64,000 bases of DNA from an uncultured Tateyamaria sp. (GTDB lineage: Bacteria > Pseudomonadota > Alphaproteobacteria > Rhodobacterales > Rhodobacteraceae): the NCBI RefSeq assembly GCF_947488715.1, contig NZ_CANLAG010000004.1:124001-188000 (forward strand). The letters run 5' to 3'. Of the stretch, positions 5,264 to 14,703 are shown piece by piece. The translations under genes were made by a program, and so were the position numbers. Position 1 is the first letter of the stretch. Every line of letters starts with the position of its first letter. A model generated the notes under the pieces. The model worked only from the letters and a program-made list of their open reading frames with translations, was not told where the DNA came from and made no database searches.

Positions 5264-6652
5264 TCAGGTCCAGGGGCCAATGGCGACGGCAACAGTGCCC
5301 GAACCGATGTTGTAGGTCGTCTTCGACGGCACTTGCGGGCCGGAATAGGCGCCCATCGGTGCTTCATCCATGGAAAACCCATAGGCCGCGCCACCAATCA
5401 TGATCGGATCGGTGCCTGCGCTGCGGTAATCGTTGCCGTCCACGTCGCTGCAATGCAGGAACTTTGCAAAAAGGTGGCTGATCTTTTTATCGCCGTACCA
5501 TGTCGCGGGGTTGTTCCAGGCCGTTGTGCTGAATTGGGGGTCTTCGCTGATCTCTCCAGCGACGAATGTGCCGTCCAGCACCACGCCGCGACAGATCGCT
5601 TCCCAGATCGCGTCCTGAACCAGTTGCGCCTCACTCACGCCGACAATGCCGGGGGTCAAGGTATCGGTGAACGCCTGTTGGAACACATATTGTGCGCCTT
5701 GCAGGTCATTGGGCGCAGTGATCGGGTCCGCCCCCAGCGGGTTGAAATAGTAATAGGTCCTGTCACCCGTCGAATTCACCAGCCGGTAGGCCAGCATGTC
5801 GGTCTTGGTGGTGGGGTTGGTGTAGGTGATGCAAGACCCTGAATAGATGTTGTTCGGGTTTTCGGAGACCGGGATGCTAATGGCCAACGTGTTCCCGGCG
5901 ACAAAGAATTTTTGCAGGGTGGATGTCCAATAGGTCTTTAGACCGCTGGTGGTGTCGTTGACGTAGTTCCCGGTGATGGCCGCCAGATAGTCATTGGGGT
6001 CCGCGATCGAGAAATACTGCCCGCCGATCATTGGGGGCGTATAGGTGCTGCCCGACATCGGGCCATCATAGAGCAGGTCACCAAAGGCATCCGCACCGGG
6101 CACACCCGATTGGTTGGTCAGAAAGCTGCTAAAGGCGGCGCCGACCTGTGCGCGGCTGACCTTGCCGTGCACACCAAATTCCTGTGCGGGCTGATCACCG
6201 TTCTCTGGCACTGCGAACCGCAGGTTCAGGGCAAAACCGTTCACCGCCGACAGATCAAACGCGGCGTTCATGCCGAATTCAAAAACGTCATAGGGACCTT
6301 CGGGTGCCACCCCAGGCGCGGCGGAGTAGGGGGATTGAGTGTACATCTGTACGTCGTCATAAACACCCGCTTTGTTCTTGAGCAGTGACAACCCGCTGGG
6401 CGTCGTTGGCGTGGCCGTGAACAACAGACGGTCGTTGCCATTTGTGCTTTCCGACAGGGTGACAGCTTCGATGTTGGACAGCTTGTGGAACTTCAGTTTC
6501 GTGTCCGTGCTGCCCAGCGGGACAAATTTACCCTTGTCGTTCATCGTCTTGAAACCCGAACTTCCCCCGTTGATCCAGCCAGCGACGTAAATGGCGCCAT
6601 CCGTTTCAGGCAGCTTGGAGAGATCTTTGAGCGTGATCGTGATTGTGTTCAT
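5264..6652 (-). CDS. GH64 / thaumatin-like beta-1,3-glucanase-like protein
   Basis: A 462-residue protein whose order of motifs resembles the GH64/thaumatin-like beta-1,3-glucanase family. It opens with ITITLKDLSKLP and IYVAGWINGG (the 'ITNNSG..vYIY' start), then GPYDVFEFGMNAAFDLSAVNGF and NDYLAAITGNY. It ends with GAAYGFSMDEAPMGAYSG followed by GTVAVAIGPW, like the family's 'YGFAFDD' close. I cannot place catalytic Glu/Asp with certainty. No Sec signal peptide is visible, which is unusual for a glucanase. The start at 6652 is chosen where the family similarity begins; a 49-residue longer frame overlaps the neighbour. It is last in a leftward three-gene operon with two unassigned proteins. 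Confidence 0.5.
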   Translation of the reverse strand: MNTITITLKDLSKLPETDGAIYVAGWINGGSSGFKTMNDKGKFVPLGSTDTKLKFHKLSNIEAVTLSESTNGNDRLLFTATPTTPSGLSLLKNKAGVYDDVQMYTQSPYSAAPGVAPEGPYDVFEFGMNAAFDLSAVNGFALNLRFAVPENGDQPAQEFGVHGKVSRAQVGAAFSSFLTNQSGVPGADAFGDLLYDGPMSGSTYTPPMIGGQYFSIADPNDYLAAITGNYVNDTTSGLKTYWTSTLQKFFVAGNTLAISIPVSENPNNIYSGSCITYTNPTTKTDMLAYRLVNSTGDRTYYYFNPLGADPITAPNDLQGAQYVFQQAFTDTLTPGIVGVSEAQLVQDAIWEAICRGVVLDGTFVAGEISEDPQFSTTAWNNPATWYGDKKISHLFAKFLHCSDVDGNDYRSAGTDPIMIGGAAYGFSMDEAPMGAYSGPQVPSKTTYNIGSGTVAVAIGPWT

Positions 6653-6720
6653 TGTGGTTCCCTGTTTGGAAAATTGGGTTGCATGGAAAATATGCGGCGG
6701 GCCGTGGTGCTCACCGCGTT

Positions 6721-7725
6721 TCAAGCAAGCGGGGTGTCCTTGACGGCGCAGACCAGAAATCCGGCATTTGCAGATTGATAGAGGTCGCCGCTGTCCCATG
6801 ACGACGAAAATGATAGCCCTTCGAGCAGGTTATCGTTGGGTTTGAAGGTTCCAAAGGGGAAAACGATGTTGCGGGACAGAACAAGACGCCCTTTGCGCGT
6901 GGCTTTGGTCGTCATGCGTTCCAACAGGGCAACTTCGGGTTCCGCAACCAGTTCTGTGATGTCGATTTCGCTGCCGACATCGCGGTCAAACTGGACGCGC
7001 CCCACCATCACATAGGCGGTGGCACGGGCGAAATCGGCGGTGTCGCCAAAGTTCGACTGCCGCATGAAGGTCACCCCATCATACGTGCCGTCGCGCATCC
7101 CCGACATCAGCGGCTGGGAATACCATCCCGTTGTGTCGCCAAGCTGTTGCGGAGTTAGGTACACGATGCGGAAATCGCTATAGATCAGTTTGGCCTTCAA
7201 CCGGTAGCCGCCGGGTTGGATCGTCGCCTTTTGCCATGGTGCTGCGTCGTTGGGCCGCCAGACATCTATATCGACGGTCAACGTCGGAATGCTGGGCGAA
7301 GTATCCCAATGGGCGTCGTAGCGCGGCACAAACCCATCCCCGGAGGGCAGGGCGGAAAACGGGTTCAGGTGCAACCCGCCATTGATGTCGTTGCTGTGCG
7401 TGGTGTTGATCCGGGCCTGTGTCTGCTTGTTGGCGAGCGTGGCAATGGACTGGCCGGACCCGCCGCGCAGGATCGTCGCGGACAGGTATCGCGCGTAGGC
7501 CGCGGAAAAGCTGTTGGATGTGACAGTGACCGGTTGCTTGCTCGACAACTGACCGTCGATCAGCGGCCAGGCATCGGCGTTCATGGTGTCCCCACTGATG
7601 GGAACCAGCGGAAAGTACCGCACTGAATTGGTAAATTCCGGCGTGGCACCGGCCGCTAGTGCCGGCGAGGCCTGTACGTGTTGCGACAGTTTTGCGGCAA
7701 CCAGGGTTTCCAGATAATCGCTCAA
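6721..7725 (-). CDS. Unassigned protein, middle gene of the accessory operon
   Basis: A 334-residue protein I do not recognise. It has no signal peptide or membrane segment. It begins with a helical stretch (SDYLETLVAAKLSQHVQASPALAAG), and the remainder is rich in predicted strands, with many Ser, Thr, Asn and aromatic residues. Motifs that would be useful for searching are LTVDIDVWRPND, GTYDGVTFMRQSNFGDTADF, and RNIVFPFGTFKPNDNLLEGL. It lies between an unassigned 441-residue gene upstream and the GH64-like gene downstream, all on the minus strand with gaps of 94 and 68 bases, so it is probably co-expressed with both. Composition is like the neighbouring genes, so the reading frame is probably real. 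Confidence 0.65.
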   Translation of the reverse strand: MSDYLETLVAAKLSQHVQASPALAAGATPEFTNSVRYFPLVPISGDTMNADAWPLIDGQLSSKQPVTVTSNSFSAAYARYLSATILRGGSGQSIATLANKQTQARINTTHSNDINGGLHLNPFSALPSGDGFVPRYDAHWDTSPSIPTLTVDIDVWRPNDAAPWQKATIQPGGYRLKAKLIYSDFRIVYLTPQQLGDTTGWYSQPLMSGMRDGTYDGVTFMRQSNFGDTADFARATAYVMVGRVQFDRDVGSEIDITELVAEPEVALLERMTTKATRKGRLVLSRNIVFPFGTFKPNDNLLEGLSFSSSWDSGDLYQSANAGFLVCAVKDTPLA

Positions 7726-7769
7726 AGCATGTGCCCTTTTTCTTGAGACGGTGGGTCAGAACGAAAGTT

Positions 7770-7795
7770 GACCGGTCCCGCGAACGGGGCCGGTC
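7770..7795 (-). terminator. Intra-operon stem-loop (attenuator candidate)
   Basis: GACCGGTCCC (7770-7779) pairs with GGGGCCGGTC (7786-7795), ten base pairs with one G-T wobble and a six-base loop. It is in the 94-base gap after the first gene of the leftward operon, where it could reduce expression of the two downstream genes. Only a weak T-rich stretch follows on the minus strand. Confidence 0.45.
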
Positions 7796-7819
7796 GTTGG
7801 TTATCGAAAATCACGGGGA

Positions 7820-9145
7820 TCAGTCCGTCGGGTTCTCAAGGAACGCGCCATGCACAACCATGTTGTTCTTGTCGCCCGCCGGATTGATGTCGACTTCCAT
7901 CTTGTAGTTCTTGTCCGAAGAGCCGGACGACGACTTGGTGAACGACGTGCTCGACGATGCAATCGGGATGATGCCAAACAGGCTGACCGAAGCATGCGAC
8001 TGCGTGTGGAAGTATTTTTGGAACGAGGAGTAGTCGTCCGAGGCAAAGAACATCTTGCCCGTTGGCATGGTCGACACCAACAGCCCGCGCAGGGATTGCA
8101 ACCCGCCGCCCTTGAGGACAGCCTTGTGCGTTGCCTCGTTCGAGATGAAGTACGGTCCGGTGTCACCGGCGGTGTTGTTGAACGCCTGCTTGAGGATGGT
8201 CGCCAGATACCAGCCGATGGTGTTGTTGGCGGTCAGGTTCGACGGCGAGGCCGCGAGATAGCTGACATTGGTGAACTCCAGCTGGATCTTGGCCTTGGAC
8301 ATCAGGCTTTGGAAATCGCTCTGGCTGTACTGGGCGCTGGTCGCACCGGCGATGTTGAGGAAGTCGATCGGGAACGAACCGCCCGCGCCACCTTCGATGG
8401 AGAAGCTGGAAGACGACTGACCCACATCCGTCAATTCGACAGTGATGTTCACGGTCTGACCGTTGGCAAATGCCGTGGGGAAGTTCGGGTCGACGTTGTA
8501 GCCGGGGAACCAGACCTTGGCGTTGTTGCGGTCATAGGCCTGAAGGCCGCCGTTGGTTTGCGACGGCGTGGCGATATTGCCTTTGACCGCGGTGATCTGG
8601 CGACCAAATTCGACCATGGCGGAGTTGATGTTCGACATGATGTCGATGGCCGCCTTGGCCTGGTTGTAGTCCGATGCGAACCGGGCCCAGTTCAGCGACT
8701 GTTTGAATTGCGGCGTGAATTGCGCAGTCACATAGTCGATCTTGGAGTGGACGCCCGCCGCAGTCATTTCGGCCTGCGTGATGGGGGCAAAGGTTTGCTC
8801 CCAGGTGGTGACGAGGTTGTTCAGGACAACAGCGTTCTGCGTCTTGATCTGTGTGATCTGGTTCTGGTCGGCCTGCGAAAGACCGTATGCCATGTCCTGG
8901 ACCATCTGCAGGTAGGCAGAGGTGAACATGTCCGCAGTGGACCATGTGTTCAGAGCGCCGTTGGTGCCGGGCACAAAGGTGCCTGCGATGATGTCGTGTG
9001 CGCCGTGGTCCAGAACACCCATGTTCAGCACCGGACGTGCGATCATTTCGGGGATTGTGAACTGTTGTGGGTTGGGCATGCCGGGGGGCAGGCTGGATTG
9101 AAATTGCTTGAGAATCTGTGCCTTGGCGGTGTCGAGATCAGCCAT
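7820..9145 (-). CDS. Unassigned protein, first gene of the accessory operon
   Basis: A 441-residue protein I do not recognise, without signal peptide or clear membrane helix. The N-terminal half looks helical (MADLDTAKAQILKQFQSSL, later DYNQAKAAIDIMSNINSAMVEFG). The C-terminal half looks beta-rich with a Ser-rich segment (IPIASSSTSFTKSSSGSSDKN) and ends NNMVVHGAFLENPTD. Gly/Ser stretches such as SSFSIEGGAGGSFPIDFLN are notable. The start at 9145 is preferred to an upstream ATG because the N-terminal helix begins here. It is the promoter-proximal gene of the leftward operon and faces the winged-helix/TPR regulator across 491 bp. No enzymatic motif is visible. A structural or binding role is a guess only. 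Confidence 0.65.
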   Translation of the reverse strand: MADLDTAKAQILKQFQSSLPPGMPNPQQFTIPEMIARPVLNMGVLDHGAHDIIAGTFVPGTNGALNTWSTADMFTSAYLQMVQDMAYGLSQADQNQITQIKTQNAVVLNNLVTTWEQTFAPITQAEMTAAGVHSKIDYVTAQFTPQFKQSLNWARFASDYNQAKAAIDIMSNINSAMVEFGRQITAVKGNIATPSQTNGGLQAYDRNNAKVWFPGYNVDPNFPTAFANGQTVNITVELTDVGQSSSSFSIEGGAGGSFPIDFLNIAGATSAQYSQSDFQSLMSKAKIQLEFTNVSYLAASPSNLTANNTIGWYLATILKQAFNNTAGDTGPYFISNEATHKAVLKGGGLQSLRGLLVSTMPTGKMFFASDDYSSFQKYFHTQSHASVSLFGIIPIASSSTSFTKSSSGSSDKNYKMEVDINPAGDKNNMVVHGAFLENPTD

Positions 9146-9636
9146 TGTAATATGTCCTATCTTTAAGATTTTTTGACTTCCTGCGGAGCTGGCGGTTGAC
9201 CAACCCACGATTGCAGCCTGCCTGTGAGCGGCGGCAGTGTCCTGAAACCCGTCCGAAACTTCCTTGAAATCTGGGCGAAACCGAACGCGTCCGATTTCGG
9301 AAGGATTTCGGATTTGTTTCAGGCGGACGGTCGGATTTCGGGGCAGAGTCTAAGGTATTCGGGTGCAAGATCCGCAGTGACGGATCGGACAAATGCAGGA
9401 TGGGGTGACATGACGGGATCAATTCGTGCACGGGACGAGGCGGCGCTGTGCGCGCGCGCGTACGTTCCGTGGGCGCGCATGCCGTTTGCCATACTGCATC
9501 ACCCGACACACCGCGCGGTCCACCAAGCTTATCCCGCGGGCATTCCGGTCCCCAGTGTGCGCCTGCCTTGCACACTTGACGCTCCCACGACATCTCGGCC
9601 GGTATTTTGCCGCGCACGTTGTTCTGAGTTTGCCAG
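9146..9636. promoter_or_regulatory. Divergent control region with GATTTCGG direct repeats
   Basis: This 491-base gap separates the leftward three-gene operon from the regulator gene and should hold promoters for both. Three direct repeats are visible: CGATTTCGG (9292-9300), GGATTTCGG (9303-9311) and GGATTTCGG (9333-9341). Their starts are 11 and 30 bases apart, roughly one and three helical turns, as expected for tandem sites of an OmpR-type winged-helix protein. Open frames inside the gap have no support as genes. Confidence 0.45.
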
Positions 9637-11442
9637 ATGACGCAGGGTCTATCGTCAAACGGGAATGCCTGTTACGCTGCCAATGGGTTAGGTGGATCGC
9701 CGGTTGTTGGCATGGCATGGAAAAAACTGGCAGGCCGTTTTCCGGCTGCCAGAACGGAACATGTGCCAGCGCAACGCCCGGTGCTGCATGAACCAAGTGT
9801 TCTGCAAAAGGGGCGAGAGACGGACATTTTCGGCAATGAGCGCCAAACACCAGACCGCATCCGTCTTGGTGAAACGACGTATGACAGGACGAACCAACGC
9901 CTGAGCGATGCGACAGGTCGTGAAATCCTGTTGCGTGCGCAATCCGCGCGCGTGCTGCAGGTGCTGGCGGAAACGCCGGGCGTGCTCGTGGCGCGTGATG
10001 ATCTGATTGAACGTATCTGGGGCGATGTGTCGGTGACCGATGACAGCCTCACACAATGCGTGGCCGACATCCGCCGCGCCTTGGCTGACCATGACCGCGC
10101 GCTCCTGCGAACGATGCCGAAACGCGGCTATGTCCTCAACGGTGTCGTGTTGGAGGTCGCCGCCGCAACCGCTGCCGCGCCCGTAGATGCGCCGACAGAC
10201 CATGCCATTATAGAGCCCGAAGGCACCATTACCGCCCAACTGGACCCGCGCGACGTCTTGCCGACACTCGCCGTGATGCCGATGCGCAGCGCGCTGGAGG
10301 GCAAGCAGGAACCGCTGGGCATTTTCATTGCAGATGAAATCGCAGGCGCGCTTGGACGGTCCGAGGACGTCAACGTGATCTCGCGGCTGTCCACGGCACA
10401 GGTGACCGATACACCGGGTGGCGTCAGCGACCTGCGGCGCGTCCTGAATGCCGATTTTGTCGTGTCAGGCCATGTTCTGACCGAAGGCGACCGCGCCATG
10501 CTGTCGGTCGAATTCGTGGAAACGGACACGCAATACATCCTTTGGTCCGAACGGGTGAGTTTGCCGTTGGGGCCGTTGCTGACTGACACGGATTGGGTCG
10601 CGCATATCGCGTCGCACGTGCGCAACGCCATCATGGTGAATGAGGTGCGCCGCTTGCGCACGCGCCCACTGGCTGATCTGAAACTGTTCAGCGTACTGCA
10701 CGGTGCCGTGGGCCTCATGCACCGCTTGTCGCCACGCTATTTCAACGAAGCGCGGGACCTGCTCACCTATCTGATTGAACGTGCACCCAACAATCCGTCG
10801 CCACTGGCCTGGATGGCGCGCTGGCACGTGTTGCGCGCGATGCAGGGCTGGTCGCAGGACGTTCAGAAAGAAGCACAGGCCGCGATCGAGTGCGCTGAAC
10901 GGGCGCTCGACATCGATTCCGAAAACACGTTGGCGCTGACCAGCCTCGGCTTTGTGATGACCAACCTGCTGCACCAGTTGGATGATGCGCGCGGCTACTA
11001 TGACAGCGCGCTTGTGATCAATCCAAACGACGCTCAAGCCCGTGCGCTGCGCGGTATGTTGCAGGCATTCACGGATCATGCCGACGATGGCAAACGCGAC
11101 GTAGAGCGTGCTTTGCATCTGACGCCAAGAGACCCGCACCGGTTTTTCTATTTGATCCTGGCCGCGGGCGCGAACCTGTCGGCAGGGGACTACACACGGG
11201 CCGTGACGTTGGCCCAGGAATCGCTCCGCCTGAACCGAACCCATGTGTCGACGTTGCGAACACTGGCGGCTGCGCAAATGGGGGCCGGTCAGGCAGACGC
11301 ATCCCAAAAGACAGTGCGCGAGTTGATGCGGCTGCAACCTGATCTGCGGGTCAGCACCTGGCAACGCAATGCACCCAGCCGAAATTTTGAAAACGGACGC
11401 AGGTTCGCCGAGCTGCTGAAAAGCGCTGGCGTGCCGGATTGA
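9637..11442 (+). CDS. Winged-helix (OmpR/CadC-type) regulator with TPR domain
   Basis: A protein of up to 601 residues. Residues of about 75-169 form a Trans_reg_C winged helix (LLRAQSARVLQVLAETPG, then LRTMPKRGYVLNG). Residues of about 205-310 resemble the FlgO/TolB-like module common after such HTHs (LAVMPM... LGIFIADEIAGAL... VVSGHV). Residues of about 390-580 carry tetratricopeptide-like helices (ALDIDSENTLALTSLGF; ALVINPNDAQARALRGML). No transmembrane helix is seen, so unlike CadC it should be soluble. The start is uncertain: 9637 is the longest option and ATG at 9712 is an alternative, neither with a good ribosome-binding site. By position it is the likely activator of the flanking operons; the effector is unknown. 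Confidence 0.85.
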   Translation: MTQGLSSNGNACYAANGLGGSPVVGMAWKKLAGRFPAARTEHVPAQRPVLHEPSVLQKGRETDIFGNERQTPDRIRLGETTYDRTNQRLSDATGREILLRAQSARVLQVLAETPGVLVARDDLIERIWGDVSVTDDSLTQCVADIRRALADHDRALLRTMPKRGYVLNGVVLEVAAATAAAPVDAPTDHAIIEPEGTITAQLDPRDVLPTLAVMPMRSALEGKQEPLGIFIADEIAGALGRSEDVNVISRLSTAQVTDTPGGVSDLRRVLNADFVVSGHVLTEGDRAMLSVEFVETDTQYILWSERVSLPLGPLLTDTDWVAHIASHVRNAIMVNEVRRLRTRPLADLKLFSVLHGAVGLMHRLSPRYFNEARDLLTYLIERAPNNPSPLAWMARWHVLRAMQGWSQDVQKEAQAAIECAERALDIDSENTLALTSLGFVMTNLLHQLDDARGYYDSALVINPNDAQARALRGMLQAFTDHADDGKRDVERALHLTPRDPHRFFYLILAAGANLSAGDYTRAVTLAQESLRLNRTHVSTLRTLAAAQMGAGQADASQKTVRELMRLQPDLRVSTWQRNAPSRNFENGRRFAELLKSAGVPD

Positions 11443-11473
11443 TAGACAACCTACAAAGACTGGAGGACTTCCG

Positions 11474-12661
11474 ATGAGCATTTTCCCACAAGGTGCCTAT
11501 GGCGCGTATGGAGCATATGGAGCGTACGGCGCCTACGGGGCGTATGGCGCCTATGCAGGTGCGGGGGCATACGGGGCCTATGGCGCCTACGGGGCATATG
11601 GCGGTGGTTCGGAAAACCCGATGCTGGCGAACGCGTTCATCACCACCCATGACGGCATCACCGGTGCACAATTGGATCACGTGGGCACCGTCAACCCCGG
11701 CGCAGCAGACAGCACCGAAAACCTGACCCGCCTGTCGGCCGGCGTACGCGCAGCGCTCTATCAGGCCGAACTGACGCCCACAGTCGACGTGAATTTTGAC
11801 GCCGATGGTGATTTCCCTCAGGCGGTGCTTTGGCGTCGTGGCAAGGAAAAGCGCGGCGGCACTGTGATCAAGCAGGAAAAGATGGTCCAGATGATCGCGC
11901 CCGAAGTCGGGCAGTTGCAGGCGCAAATGAAACAGGTGTGGGGCTATGCTCAGATCCGCCCTGACCGGTCGAGCGAGATCCTGACGCAGGTGTCCGTCCC
12001 GGCACCGTTCTTTTCGACCATCGGCTTTATGGATCCAGCGCGCACGCCGTATACGCTTGAATTCCTCTATGCTGCACTGGCCTTTGCCTCCTCGGCCTAT
12101 CAGCGGATGAAATACACTCTGGCGGTCAAGCGCCCGATCGAGTTCTCGCCGCAACTGCAACCGATGATCCCGACGCCGACGCACGGCTCGCTGCCCAGCG
12201 GCCATGCGACCGAAGCATTCCTGATGGCCCGCTTGATCTGGAAACTTTTGCGCCACAGTAACGCACCGCAATACAGCGACACGGCCTATTGGGGTGAGAT
12301 GCTGATGCGGCTGGCCGCGCGTATTGCCACCAACCGGACTGTGGCGGGCGTCCACTTCCCCGTGGACAGCGTGGCAGGTGCCATCCTGGGTTCAACACTG
12401 GCCGAGCATGTCTTTACCCAATGCTGCGGTGGCGACTGGTGGTCCACGTCCTTTGACGGGACCAAATTCGATCCCAACGATGATCTGAATTGGCACCTTC
12501 TTTACGACGCGGCTACAGATACGATGGAACCCAGCGCGGGCGAATGGATGCAGGGTGAAACCCAGAGCGGTGACCCAAGGTTTGAACCATCCCCGATCCT
12601 GGCCTGGCTCTGGTCCAAGGCTGTGGCTGAATGGCAGGACATCGAAACCGGTGCGGGTTGA
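11474..12661 (+). CDS. PAP2 / vanadium-dependent haloperoxidase-type protein with GAY-repeat N-terminus
   Basis: A 395-residue protein carrying the complete vanadate/phosphate pocket of the PAP2-vanadium haloperoxidase superfamily. K213 and R220-P221 form KX6RP, P241-S242-G243-H244 form PSGH, and R288, H294 and D298 form RX5HX3D. The wording TPTHGSLPSGHATEAF resembles vanadium-dependent haloperoxidases more than lipid phosphatases, and no membrane helices are seen. Which anion and substrate it uses cannot be read from sequence. Residues 7-45 are a Gly-Ala-Tyr tandem repeat with no counterpart in the family that I know. It lies 31 bases after the regulator, with GGAGGA before the start, and 11 bases before the subtilase gene, suggesting co-transcription. 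Confidence 0.85.
   Translation: MSIFPQGAYGAYGAYGAYGAYGAYGAYAGAGAYGAYGAYGAYGGGSENPMLANAFITTHDGITGAQLDHVGTVNPGAADSTENLTRLSAGVRAALYQAELTPTVDVNFDADGDFPQAVLWRRGKEKRGGTVIKQEKMVQMIAPEVGQLQAQMKQVWGYAQIRPDRSSEILTQVSVPAPFFSTIGFMDPARTPYTLEFLYAALAFASSAYQRMKYTLAVKRPIEFSPQLQPMIPTPTHGSLPSGHATEAFLMARLIWKLLRHSNAPQYSDTAYWGEMLMRLAARIATNRTVAGVHFPVDSVAGAILGSTLAEHVFTQCCGGDWWSTSFDGTKFDPNDDLNWHLLYDAATDTMEPSAGEWMQGETQSGDPRFEPSPILAWLWSKAVAEWQDIETGAG
11492..11608 (+). repeat. In-frame 9-bp tandem repeat coding Gly-Ala-Tyr
   Basis: Thirteen consecutive 9-base units encode seven GAY triplets, one AGA, four GAY and one GGG. The units differ at synonymous positions (GGT/GGC/GGA/GGG, GCC/GCG/GCA, TAT/TAC), so the peptide is better conserved than the DNA. 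This argues against very recent slippage and for selection on the protein. Confidence 0.9.
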
Positions 12662-12672
12662 GGAGCGGGACC

Positions 12673-14703
12673 ATGTACAACTGGACCGATACCCAAACCC
12701 GGGATGACGCGCCGCTTCTTGACGAGGTGACCGATTTCCGGCTCACCCTCGCCCAGGCGCAAGTGTCAGAATTTGTGGATGAAATATGGTGGTCTGTGCT
12801 GATCGAAGTGGCCAATGTGTCCATCGATGAGTTCGAGGCATCGGTGGTGGACTATGGCAGCGATCTGCTGATCCCGGCGGCCTATGATGCGGCGGATCGG
12901 TCACGCGAAATGGCGCGGCAGCCCATCACAATCTACGCCCGCAAGCGCTTGATCGACACGCTGAACCAGGCGGACAACCCGCACCACGTGGTGTCTCTGC
13001 ACCTCGGTGCACAGACCTCTGACACCTACCTGGACTTTGATGCGACTTCGCCGGAATTGACCCCGGTCACGGTTTCGGACGACGCTGTGGTCATGGCGGT
13101 TGTGGATGACGGCATCGCAATCGCCCATGACCTTTTGCGCAAAGGGCGCGTCACCACGCGCGTCGCCCATGCCTCGATCCTCGAAGCACAGCCCGTGCTT
13201 GGTGGGCACAGTTCCGTCGGCCGGGGCCTCGACAGCGAGGCAATCGACGCGGCACTGGATGCGGCGACATTCAACGATCTGCTGGACGAGGACCTGTTCT
13301 ACCGTTCCGTTGGCATCGTGGATTGGGCTGCGACGGCGGTGTCGACAGTGGCCGCGCGTACGTCGCATGGCACCCATGTCTCGGGGCTGGCTGCGGGCTA
13401 TCCGATGGAGGCCGCCTGTGACAATCGGCCGGTGATCTGCGTTGCCCTTCCGAACCCCGCGGTCGAGGACACAACCGGGCTCGATTCCCTGCCGATCCTT
13501 TACCTCGCATTCCATATCCTCGCCAAACAGGCCCAGCGGTTCTGCCGGGCGGACGGATCGCTGGTGCCGGTTGTGTTCAACTTTTCCTTTGGCAATTCGG
13601 GCGGGCCGCACGATGGCACGGGCCTCTTTGCGACCCTGTTTGAACACTACTTTGGCGACAATCGCCAATGGCCCGGCCCGGATCAAAAAGCGTGGCTGAC
13701 CCTGCCTGCGGGCAACATCAACCTGGGCCGCCTGCACGGCGTGGCCGAGGAGGCCGGACCAACACATTTTGACCTGTCCGTACTGCCCAATGACCAGACG
13801 CCAACCGTTGTGCAGATTTGGATGCCCACCGGCACCGCCGACAGCGCACCAGGGCTGGCGCAGATTGCAGTCACCACACCGGGCGGGCAAAGCGCCGTGA
13901 TCCCGACCGTGCCGGGGCAGGTGGCGTCCCTTGTCAATGAGGCTGGCGCCGAGATTGCGCGCCTGGCCTGTCAGGCGGGTGGGGGCGTGATCCACCGCGA
14001 TCTTGTGACCGTTTCGATCAATCCTACCGCGCATCTGGATACGCCGGGGCCGAATGCCCCGCATGGGATGTGGGCGATTGATGTCACCCGCGATGACGGC
14101 CCGTCCGAAGCAGCCATCCACTTTTGGGTGCGCCGCGACGAAACGCTGCCGGGAACGCGGTCGGGTGGTCGTCAGGCGTGGTTCAGCAACCCAGACTACG
14201 TGCGGTTTGACCGCTTTGGCGTGCCGCTGGCCACAGATCCCACAGGCACCGATTGCCCGGTGCGCCGTCACACCACGCTCAGCGGGTTTGCCGGTGGCGA
14301 AGCCCCCATCGTCGTGGCCGCCTACACCGAACGGGACGCGCAAGTGTCGCTCTATTCCGGCAGTGGACCACTGGCGCGCCGCGATGTGCCGCCCGTGCCA
14401 ACGCGCGACGGTCCGGACCTCGCGGCCAAAGGCGACGACAGCTATGCGTTGCGTGGCGTGATCAACGCAGGCTCGCGCAGCGGCTCTTGGGTGCGGTTGT
14501 CGGGCACCAGCGTGGCTGCGCCGCGTGTGGCCCGTGCTGCGTCTGACGGGATTTGTGATGCCGCTGGCGGTGGTCGTGACTGGTCGGCGCATGCGGCGGC
14601 CCAGTCGCCGTTCCCGCTTGCGGATACAACCACGCCAGAGCGCGCGGGTGTGGGTGGCATCGACATTCCTATTCCGGGATTTGGACGCCCTCCCTCGTCC
14701 TGA
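12673..14703 (+). CDS. Subtilisin-like serine peptidase (S8 family)
   Basis: A 676-residue subtilase with an intact catalytic triad: D145 in VVDDGIAIAHD, H232 in SHGTHVSGLAAG, and S613 in SGTSVAAP. The distance between His and Ser is long (about 380 residues), implying a large insert between the oxyanion region and the Ser motif. An N-terminal region of about 130 residues precedes the Asp motif and may act as a prodomain. No signal peptide is visible. The start at 12673 follows GAGGAGCGGG and is only 11 bases after the haloperoxidase-type gene, so the two probably form one transcript. A role in processing a product of this locus, such as the GAY-repeat protein, is speculative. Confidence 0.88.
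   Translation: MYNWTDTQTRDDAPLLDEVTDFRLTLAQAQVSEFVDEIWWSVLIEVANVSIDEFEASVVDYGSDLLIPAAYDAADRSREMARQPITIYARKRLIDTLNQADNPHHVVSLHLGAQTSDTYLDFDATSPELTPVTVSDDAVVMAVVDDGIAIAHDLLRKGRVTTRVAHASILEAQPVLGGHSSVGRGLDSEAIDAALDAATFNDLLDEDLFYRSVGIVDWAATAVSTVAARTSHGTHVSGLAAGYPMEAACDNRPVICVALPNPAVEDTTGLDSLPILYLAFHILAKQAQRFCRADGSLVPVVFNFSFGNSGGPHDGTGLFATLFEHYFGDNRQWPGPDQKAWLTLPAGNINLGRLHGVAEEAGPTHFDLSVLPNDQTPTVVQIWMPTGTADSAPGLAQIAVTTPGGQSAVIPTVPGQVASLVNEAGAEIARLACQAGGGVIHRDLVTVSINPTAHLDTPGPNAPHGMWAIDVTRDDGPSEAAIHFWVRRDETLPGTRSGGRQAWFSNPDYVRFDRFGVPLATDPTGTDCPVRRHTTLSGFAGGEAPIVVAAYTERDAQVSLYSGSGPLARRDVPPVPTRDGPDLAAKGDDSYALRGVINAGSRSGSWVRLSGTSVAAPRVARAASDGICDAAGGGRDWSAHAAAQSPFPLADTTTPERAGVGGIDIPIPGFGRPPSS

Follow-up and report, generated by a model that had tools for sequence, protein, structure and literature searches.

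We analysed a stretch of 64,000 nucleotides (the window) from an uncultured Tateyamaria sp. (contig NZ_CANLAG010000004.1, positions 124,001 to 188,000 of the forward strand), in which positions 5,264 to 14,703 hold a leftward gene set, lettered C-B-A, and a rightward set, lettered D-E-F; all coordinates are positions within the window (Table 1). Both sets of open reading frames (ORFs) lie where an earlier note, made from the letters alone, had placed a leftward operon, a regulator and a rightward enzyme pair. The G+C content of the stretch is 0.58 to 0.62, inside the window's own range. The locus consists of a core cassette, D-E-F, accompanied by clade-specific cargo. Across loci D is linked to E, mostly with F, and E starts with a tandem array of one short peptide that is uniform within each protein, differs between lineages, mostly has a period of three and is written in scrambled codons. 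The GAY repeat that the earlier note reported in E is thus present, as the local version of a lineage-specific array that a single window could not reveal.

Table 1. Genes and other features of the locus, with positions in the window
Feature	Positions	Strand	Remarks
Gene A, 462 residues, orphan	5264..6652	-	ORF; earlier GH64-like label unconfirmed
Gene B, 334 residues, TTG start, probable C paralogue	6721..7725	-	Relatives beside C elsewhere
Gene C, 441 residues, from a rare family; fold weakly matches bacterial gasdermins over its full span	7820..9145	-	
Divergent intergenic region between C and the longest D frame	9146..9636	.	Other loci may hold X215 (a frame of about 215 residues) here
Gene D, winged-helix and TPR regulator	9637..11442	+	Trans_reg_C 4.9e-13, TPR_19 2.8e-12 (Pfam)
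Gene E, PAP2-fold enzyme with N-terminal GAY array	11474..12661	+	PAP2 5.3e-13 (Pfam)
GAY array, N-terminal tail of E	11492..11599	+	Blocks of 7 and then 4 units, separated by an in-phase AGA
Gene F, S8-type subtilase whose triad is intact	12673..14703	+	Peptidase_S8 7.7e-10 (Pfam)

Pfam matches bear out the earlier calls of a regulator and a subtilase, with Trans_reg_C and tetratricopeptide repeat (TPR) domains in D and Peptidase_S8 in F. The true start of D is uncertain, and its homology begins at about residue 52 to 75. E had been described as haloperoxidase-type. The PAP2 superfamily stands, while the nearest structures to the predicted E model are class A acid phosphatases, with vanadium-dependent haloperoxidases structurally further away. 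Class A acid phosphatases and their PAP2 relatives share the motifs KX6RP, PSGH and (S)RX5HX3D. E carries these catalytic motifs, with NR replacing SR in the last one in 106 of 108 E-like frames. In the predicted model of E, 289 of 395 residues have a predicted local distance difference test (pLDDT) score of at least 90 and residues 1 to 45 score below 50; by inspection, the N terminus, where a secreted class A enzyme would have its Sec signal, is the array. E differs from the class A non-specific acid phosphatases PhoN and PhoC by about 90 extra N-terminal residues that include the array, by NR for SR, and by its placement in a regulator-protease cassette. F has the Asp-His-Ser triad within an S8 domain, and in 64 family sequences (one locus entered twice) the Asp is present in 64, the His in 64 and the Ser in 63, with one gap. 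The catalytic motifs are kept in both enzymes.

Linkage was assessed in 67 distinct loci with flanking sequence, nearly all picked for holding E or C; 66 of these hold E, in 67 copies, and one locus retrieved twice (L178 and L072) was counted once in the final tallies. D lies within 3 kilobases (kb) of E in all 67 copies and directly upstream in 66 (46 on the same strand, 20 on the opposite strand); in the remaining one, L176, it is located beyond F. F adjoins E in 63 of the 67 copies (57 same strand, 6 opposite). This linkage persists through changes of orientation and is therefore good evidence for joint function. A profile that included arrays found E relatives in 87 of the 394 genomes sampled from the family (E value 1e-30 or lower). 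A profile of the E core only was positive in 14 of 20 genomes of the genus at 1e-30. At 1e-15 it matched 26 of 398 genomes sampled from the phylum, including some that have only distant phosphatases. Plasmids of cultured Phaeobacter carry the cassette, which also occurs in other Proteobacteria, and most of the D-E-F loci seen have neither C nor B by profile. On plasmid pGal_C110 of Phaeobacter gallaeciensis DSM 26640, the annotations of D, E and F are winged helix-turn-helix protein, phosphatase PAP2 family protein and S8 family serine peptidase. PADLOC matched none of seven proteins to a known defence system.

Several neighbourhoods of the cassette have features of their own. A D-like gene lies past F on the opposite strand in L163 and L176, and in L176 it is the sole D within 3 kb. 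In Phaeobacter inhibens M647 (L221) D is annotated as two pieces, with a short coding sequence where F is expected, and in Parasedimentitalea marina (L223) the E match is covered by a short coding sequence only. In Roseibium aggregatum, E has an SGV array, and the gene upstream of it (L224:2020-3801) bears the annotation adenylate/guanylate cyclase domain protein. Directly 3' of F, L064, L067 and L078 carry a gene of 525 to 608 residues, the L064 copy of which matches the animal-type haem peroxidase family PF03098. X215 lies upstream of, or overlaps, the start of D in 12 loci other than the window (L010, L011, L012, L014, L015, L016, L017, L049, L050, L052, L053 and L059); the L017 copy matched no Pfam family at an E value of 0.1 or lower.

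We collected 113 unique E-like frames (match to the E core at an E value of 1e-12 or lower; congeners are included, so the frames are not independent) and called an array where a tandem block scored at least 6 before or at the start of the core. Such a block is present in 108 of the 113: 104 arrays are clear and four are doubtful (two-residue NK or DF blocks in L107, L113, L158 and L161). The five frames that have none (L108 to L112) are distant and short, and look Sec-exported by eye. Among 604 other ORFs of at least 150 residues in 48 loci, none reached the array score in the first 100 residues, as against 43 of 44 E ORFs. The array begins a median of 4 residues after the likely start, and a Shine-Dalgarno-like motif precedes 79 of 108 starts placed before the array, compared with 16 of 94 first start codons after it. 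For both reasons the array is very probably translated.

The 104 clear arrays use 58 different units after rotation (for example GAY, NAY, DAL, TGW, GHT and AGN), with a period of three residues in 97, four in 3, two in 2, five in 1 and six in 1. The unit is variable without being arbitrary, at least in the frames closest to the E profile: in all 31 frames that score at least 390 against the E profile it fits [GNSDTA][AGST][YFWLI], as against 4 of 77 below that score, although both pattern and cut-off were picked after the units had been seen. At E-core distances of 0.3 to 0.4, the unit is shared in only 4 of 28 locus pairs. One genus was positive in 7 of 7 genomes, and its species each keep to a single unit (TGV, AGV or SGV), apart from one AGV unit inside one TGV array. 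These differences between congeners are whole-array switches with scrambled codons.

Where searched for, the array is also confined to its enzyme. In the window's own genome a three-unit GAY pattern occurs solely at G000:C4:135492-135599, and in all three genomes searched for their own unit, this one included, a three-unit array was found nowhere but at E. This argues against other proteins sharing the motif. (For one of the three, the reversed-pattern control was invalid, giving 17 matches, since reversal yields a rotation of the same repeat.) Likewise, in 40 loci with three-residue units the array lies solely at E. We considered an amyloid-signalling pair, in which receptor and effector carry the same short motif, and rejected it, as the array is at E alone in these genomes and loci.

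The peptide is much more uniform than the DNA encoding it. Of 994 units, 985 are identical to the consensus of their own array, a figure aided by how the blocks were selected, and they have 775 distinct DNA encodings. From first to last unit of the 104 arrays, 95.2% of residues fall inside exact units; 18 arrays are split or ragged, several through in-phase three-residue insertions (AGA, SGS). Over 108 frames, the units have a codon heterogeneity of 0.65, above the 0.57 that codon use in the core predicts. Codon sharing between neighbouring units (0.265; 94 arrays) falls below that of shuffled ones (0.354, p ~2e-13). Since the peptide units are uniform and neighbouring codons are less alike than chance, repetition from one DNA unit to the next is avoided or purged and the peptide repeat kept. 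At a distance of two units, codon sharing lies slightly above that of shuffles (0.388 versus 0.361, p 0.018); by lag 4 there is no difference, and copying over longer blocks may contribute to the array DNA. All eight Phaeobacter plasmid copies that were sampled have NSF as the unit, repeated 5 to 7 times, and the differences seen within arrays are synonymous.

These properties call for a reader that needs identical units and is, over long times, indifferent to which unit it reads. A multivalent ligand of a TPR regulator, a self-assembly tag and a multi-copy peptide precursor would each fit. Our preferred reading, to which we assign a probability of about 0.3, is that D reads the array as a putative recognition tail and F cuts it. 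In this proposal D-E-F would act in regulation in the cytosol and move as a cassette between replicons, and the array would be a multivalent, register-free tail. Since a period of three dominates, the likeliest form is an extended chain with three residues per turn and uniform faces, so that each face would probably show one residue. The main reader would be the TPR domain of D, through which E would be tethered to D or report to it, and cleavage of the tail or of E by F would switch the state. Uniformity would be required since the reader must bind any unit, and the unit could switch as the reader co-evolves. In the window's clade, the C-B pair, which is divergent from D and may encode a membrane-active effector with its paralogue, would likewise come under the control of D.

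Given E-core distance, unit similarity correlates with D distance (partial r 0.18 to 0.20, 0/500 permutations, 56 loci) and less with F distance (0.06, 50/500 permutations, to 0.16, 0/500). A number of observations weigh against a recognition tail read by the TPR domain. This partial Mantel test is liberal, and its signal is small and prone to phylogenetic inflation. Split by part of D, with one locus counted twice, it is 0.11 to 0.14 for the winged helix-turn-helix (wHTH), 0.16 to 0.17 for the middle and 0.15 to 0.19 for the TPR domain, and so is not TPR-specific. Units of two, four and five residues occur, GGA recurs in many members of genus g425 and is not specific there, four E copies have no F (L171, L172, L177 and L182), and in L176 D does not adjoin E. 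Finally, of 681 database homologues 120 were listed, and only 12 of those pass a score of 7 for repeats. We infer that this low count is mostly due to start calls, as confirmed for P0029 and P0032, which we matched to genome frames and in which the annotated start falls after the array. Because database start calls are unreliable, we judged generality on genome frames; gene annotation that starts after an array can hide it, as in these two cases.

In a more specific form of the recognition-tail proposal, which we regard as doubtful, the array would be a molecular barcode. The D (or F) of each lineage would read only its own unit, insulating related or paralogous cassettes, and selection would keep peptide units identical and scramble codons against slippage, with the whole unit occasionally replaced. 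Should D or F be the partner, the family would supply ready-made orthogonal peptide-receptor pairs, together with a testable route by which a repeated ligand and its reader switch jointly. The array would be a natural protein repeat whose uniformity is conserved though its content is not, with 58 units in one place of one enzyme family and codon use that breaks up the DNA repeat. To our knowledge, the component folds are familiar and the combination and array behaviour match no known kind of system; among the open-licence PMC papers that our searches listed, no title or abstract described the array or the cassette.

It is also possible, if on balance improbable, that E molecules associate with one another through the array, forming filaments, bundles or condensates, with different units keeping paralogous systems apart. 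The units are of low complexity, rich in G, A, S and N plus one variable residue, the tail alone has no predicted structure, and the confinement to one array per genome in the three genomes searched would suit such a tag. The two-E genomes that we looked at carry different units (NAY and GHT in G335, NAL and TAM in G016), but these paralogues come from different clades, so a difference is expected regardless. Perfect uniformity, moreover, is unnecessary for condensate tails.

We think it rather unlikely that the tail is instead a multi-copy precursor, from which F or another protease frees many copies of one short peptide that the TPR domain of D senses. This would account for the uniform copies, the lineage-specific units, the co-encoded protease and TPR regulator, and the weak correlation between unit and D. 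However, GGA and the two-residue units GS and QG would be ill suited as signals, inspection by eye showed no export signal, F is missing beside 4 of 67 E copies, and the unit correlates less with F than with D. The arrangement resembles RRNPP quorum sensing in that a cytosolic DNA-binding TPR regulator adjoins a possible source of short peptides. RRNPP regulators carry helix-turn-helix types other than wHTH, so D differs by its wHTH, and the candidate peptide here belongs to an enzyme. His-Xaa-Ser repeat proteins (HxsA), whose partner is a radical SAM maturase, also have three-residue tandem repeats, and E residues 7 to 43 gave a weak NCBIfam match to them (E value 0.033); the E array differs in that its unit is not fixed and is attached to an enzyme.

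A neutral low-complexity linker homogenised by slippage is very unlikely. Copy number varies by single units among Phaeobacter, some g324 arrays contain visibly duplicated codon blocks, and the slight excess of sharing between units two apart points the same way. Slippage would nevertheless make adjacent DNA units alike, when they are less alike than chance, and within-array variation is nearly all synonymous. The adjacent-unit statistics contradict slippage as the only cause.

Outside the core cassette, the earlier note had found no nameable family for the 441- and 334-residue products of C and B, and we likewise found no Pfam (E value of 1 or lower), NCBIfam, PHROGs or PADLOC family for them. 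C-like genes are rare, occurring in 4 of the 394 sampled family genomes and in 11 loci with flanks, 9 of which adjoin D-E-F; L013, from a gammaproteobacterial metagenome-assembled genome, and L213 are without it. Relatives of B adjoin C in L010, L012 and L013, making four loci with the window. A direct profile comparison of B with C is weak (E value 0.0076, probability 5%), and in 33 kb searched with the B profile, both C-like genes of L213 were matched (2.7e-7 and 1.1e-5); B and C are probably paralogues in a rare family. We found no C relative on plasmids. A viral origin of C was rejected, as no relative was confirmed in viral contigs and C has no PHROGs family.

Three bacterial gasdermins, among the 50 matches listed, are the only structures that match the predicted C fold from end to end, and these matches are weak; Foldseek returned nothing at an E value of 0.001 or lower. 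This raises a second possible role for the cassette in one clade, as a cell-suicide device in which C, with its paralogue B, would be a gasdermin-like pore activated by F cleavage under the control of D. In fungi, as described in an excerpt of PMC10989679, HET-Q1 is cleaved by the S8 protease HET-Q2, and a protease gene lies near most fungal gasdermin genes. Such pairs, in bacteria with a caspase-like protease, have in common with this locus a protease gene near a candidate pore gene, and here C-like genes adjoin D-E-F in most of their loci. C differs in its length (441 residues versus chains of 240 to 263), in being divergently transcribed and missing from most D-E-F loci, and in having no N-terminal cysteine, which most bacterial gasdermins conserve (0 of 23 C-family members have one in the first 10 residues). 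A search for membrane hairpins in C through charge-poor windows gave no clear support. We consider the suicide device unlikely.

The proposal of a single five-protein device against beta-glucan-containing eukaryotes is almost certainly wrong: C does co-occur with D-E-F in the window's clade, but many lineages carry D-E-F without C or B, B is in 4 loci and C-like genes in 11, A is restricted to the window's genome among those sampled, and the sole glucan argument was the GH64 guess for A, with nothing else found in support. A has no match to PF16483 at an E value of 10 or lower in its own genome, no Pfam match at 1 or lower, no NCBIfam, PHROGs or PADLOC family, and no relative in the 393 other sampled family genomes. 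The conserved gene order that the earlier note proposed as a check holds strongly for D-E-F, in one clade for C (9 of 11 loci) and fails for A, which is why we describe a core cassette with cargo in place of a five-protein system.

Other genes are divergent from D in some loci. L050 (6876-8387) and L055 (12590-14167) have such a gene, of 503 to 525 residues, that by eye looks like a distant relative of C, although the C profile does not match it. L053 and L054 have instead a divergent cysteine-containing gene of 117 to 128 residues. The C-like genes of L213 (4109-11159) form a tandem pair with no D-E-F in 19 kb, and by eye lie near phage tail-collar-like and LodA-like oxidase genes.

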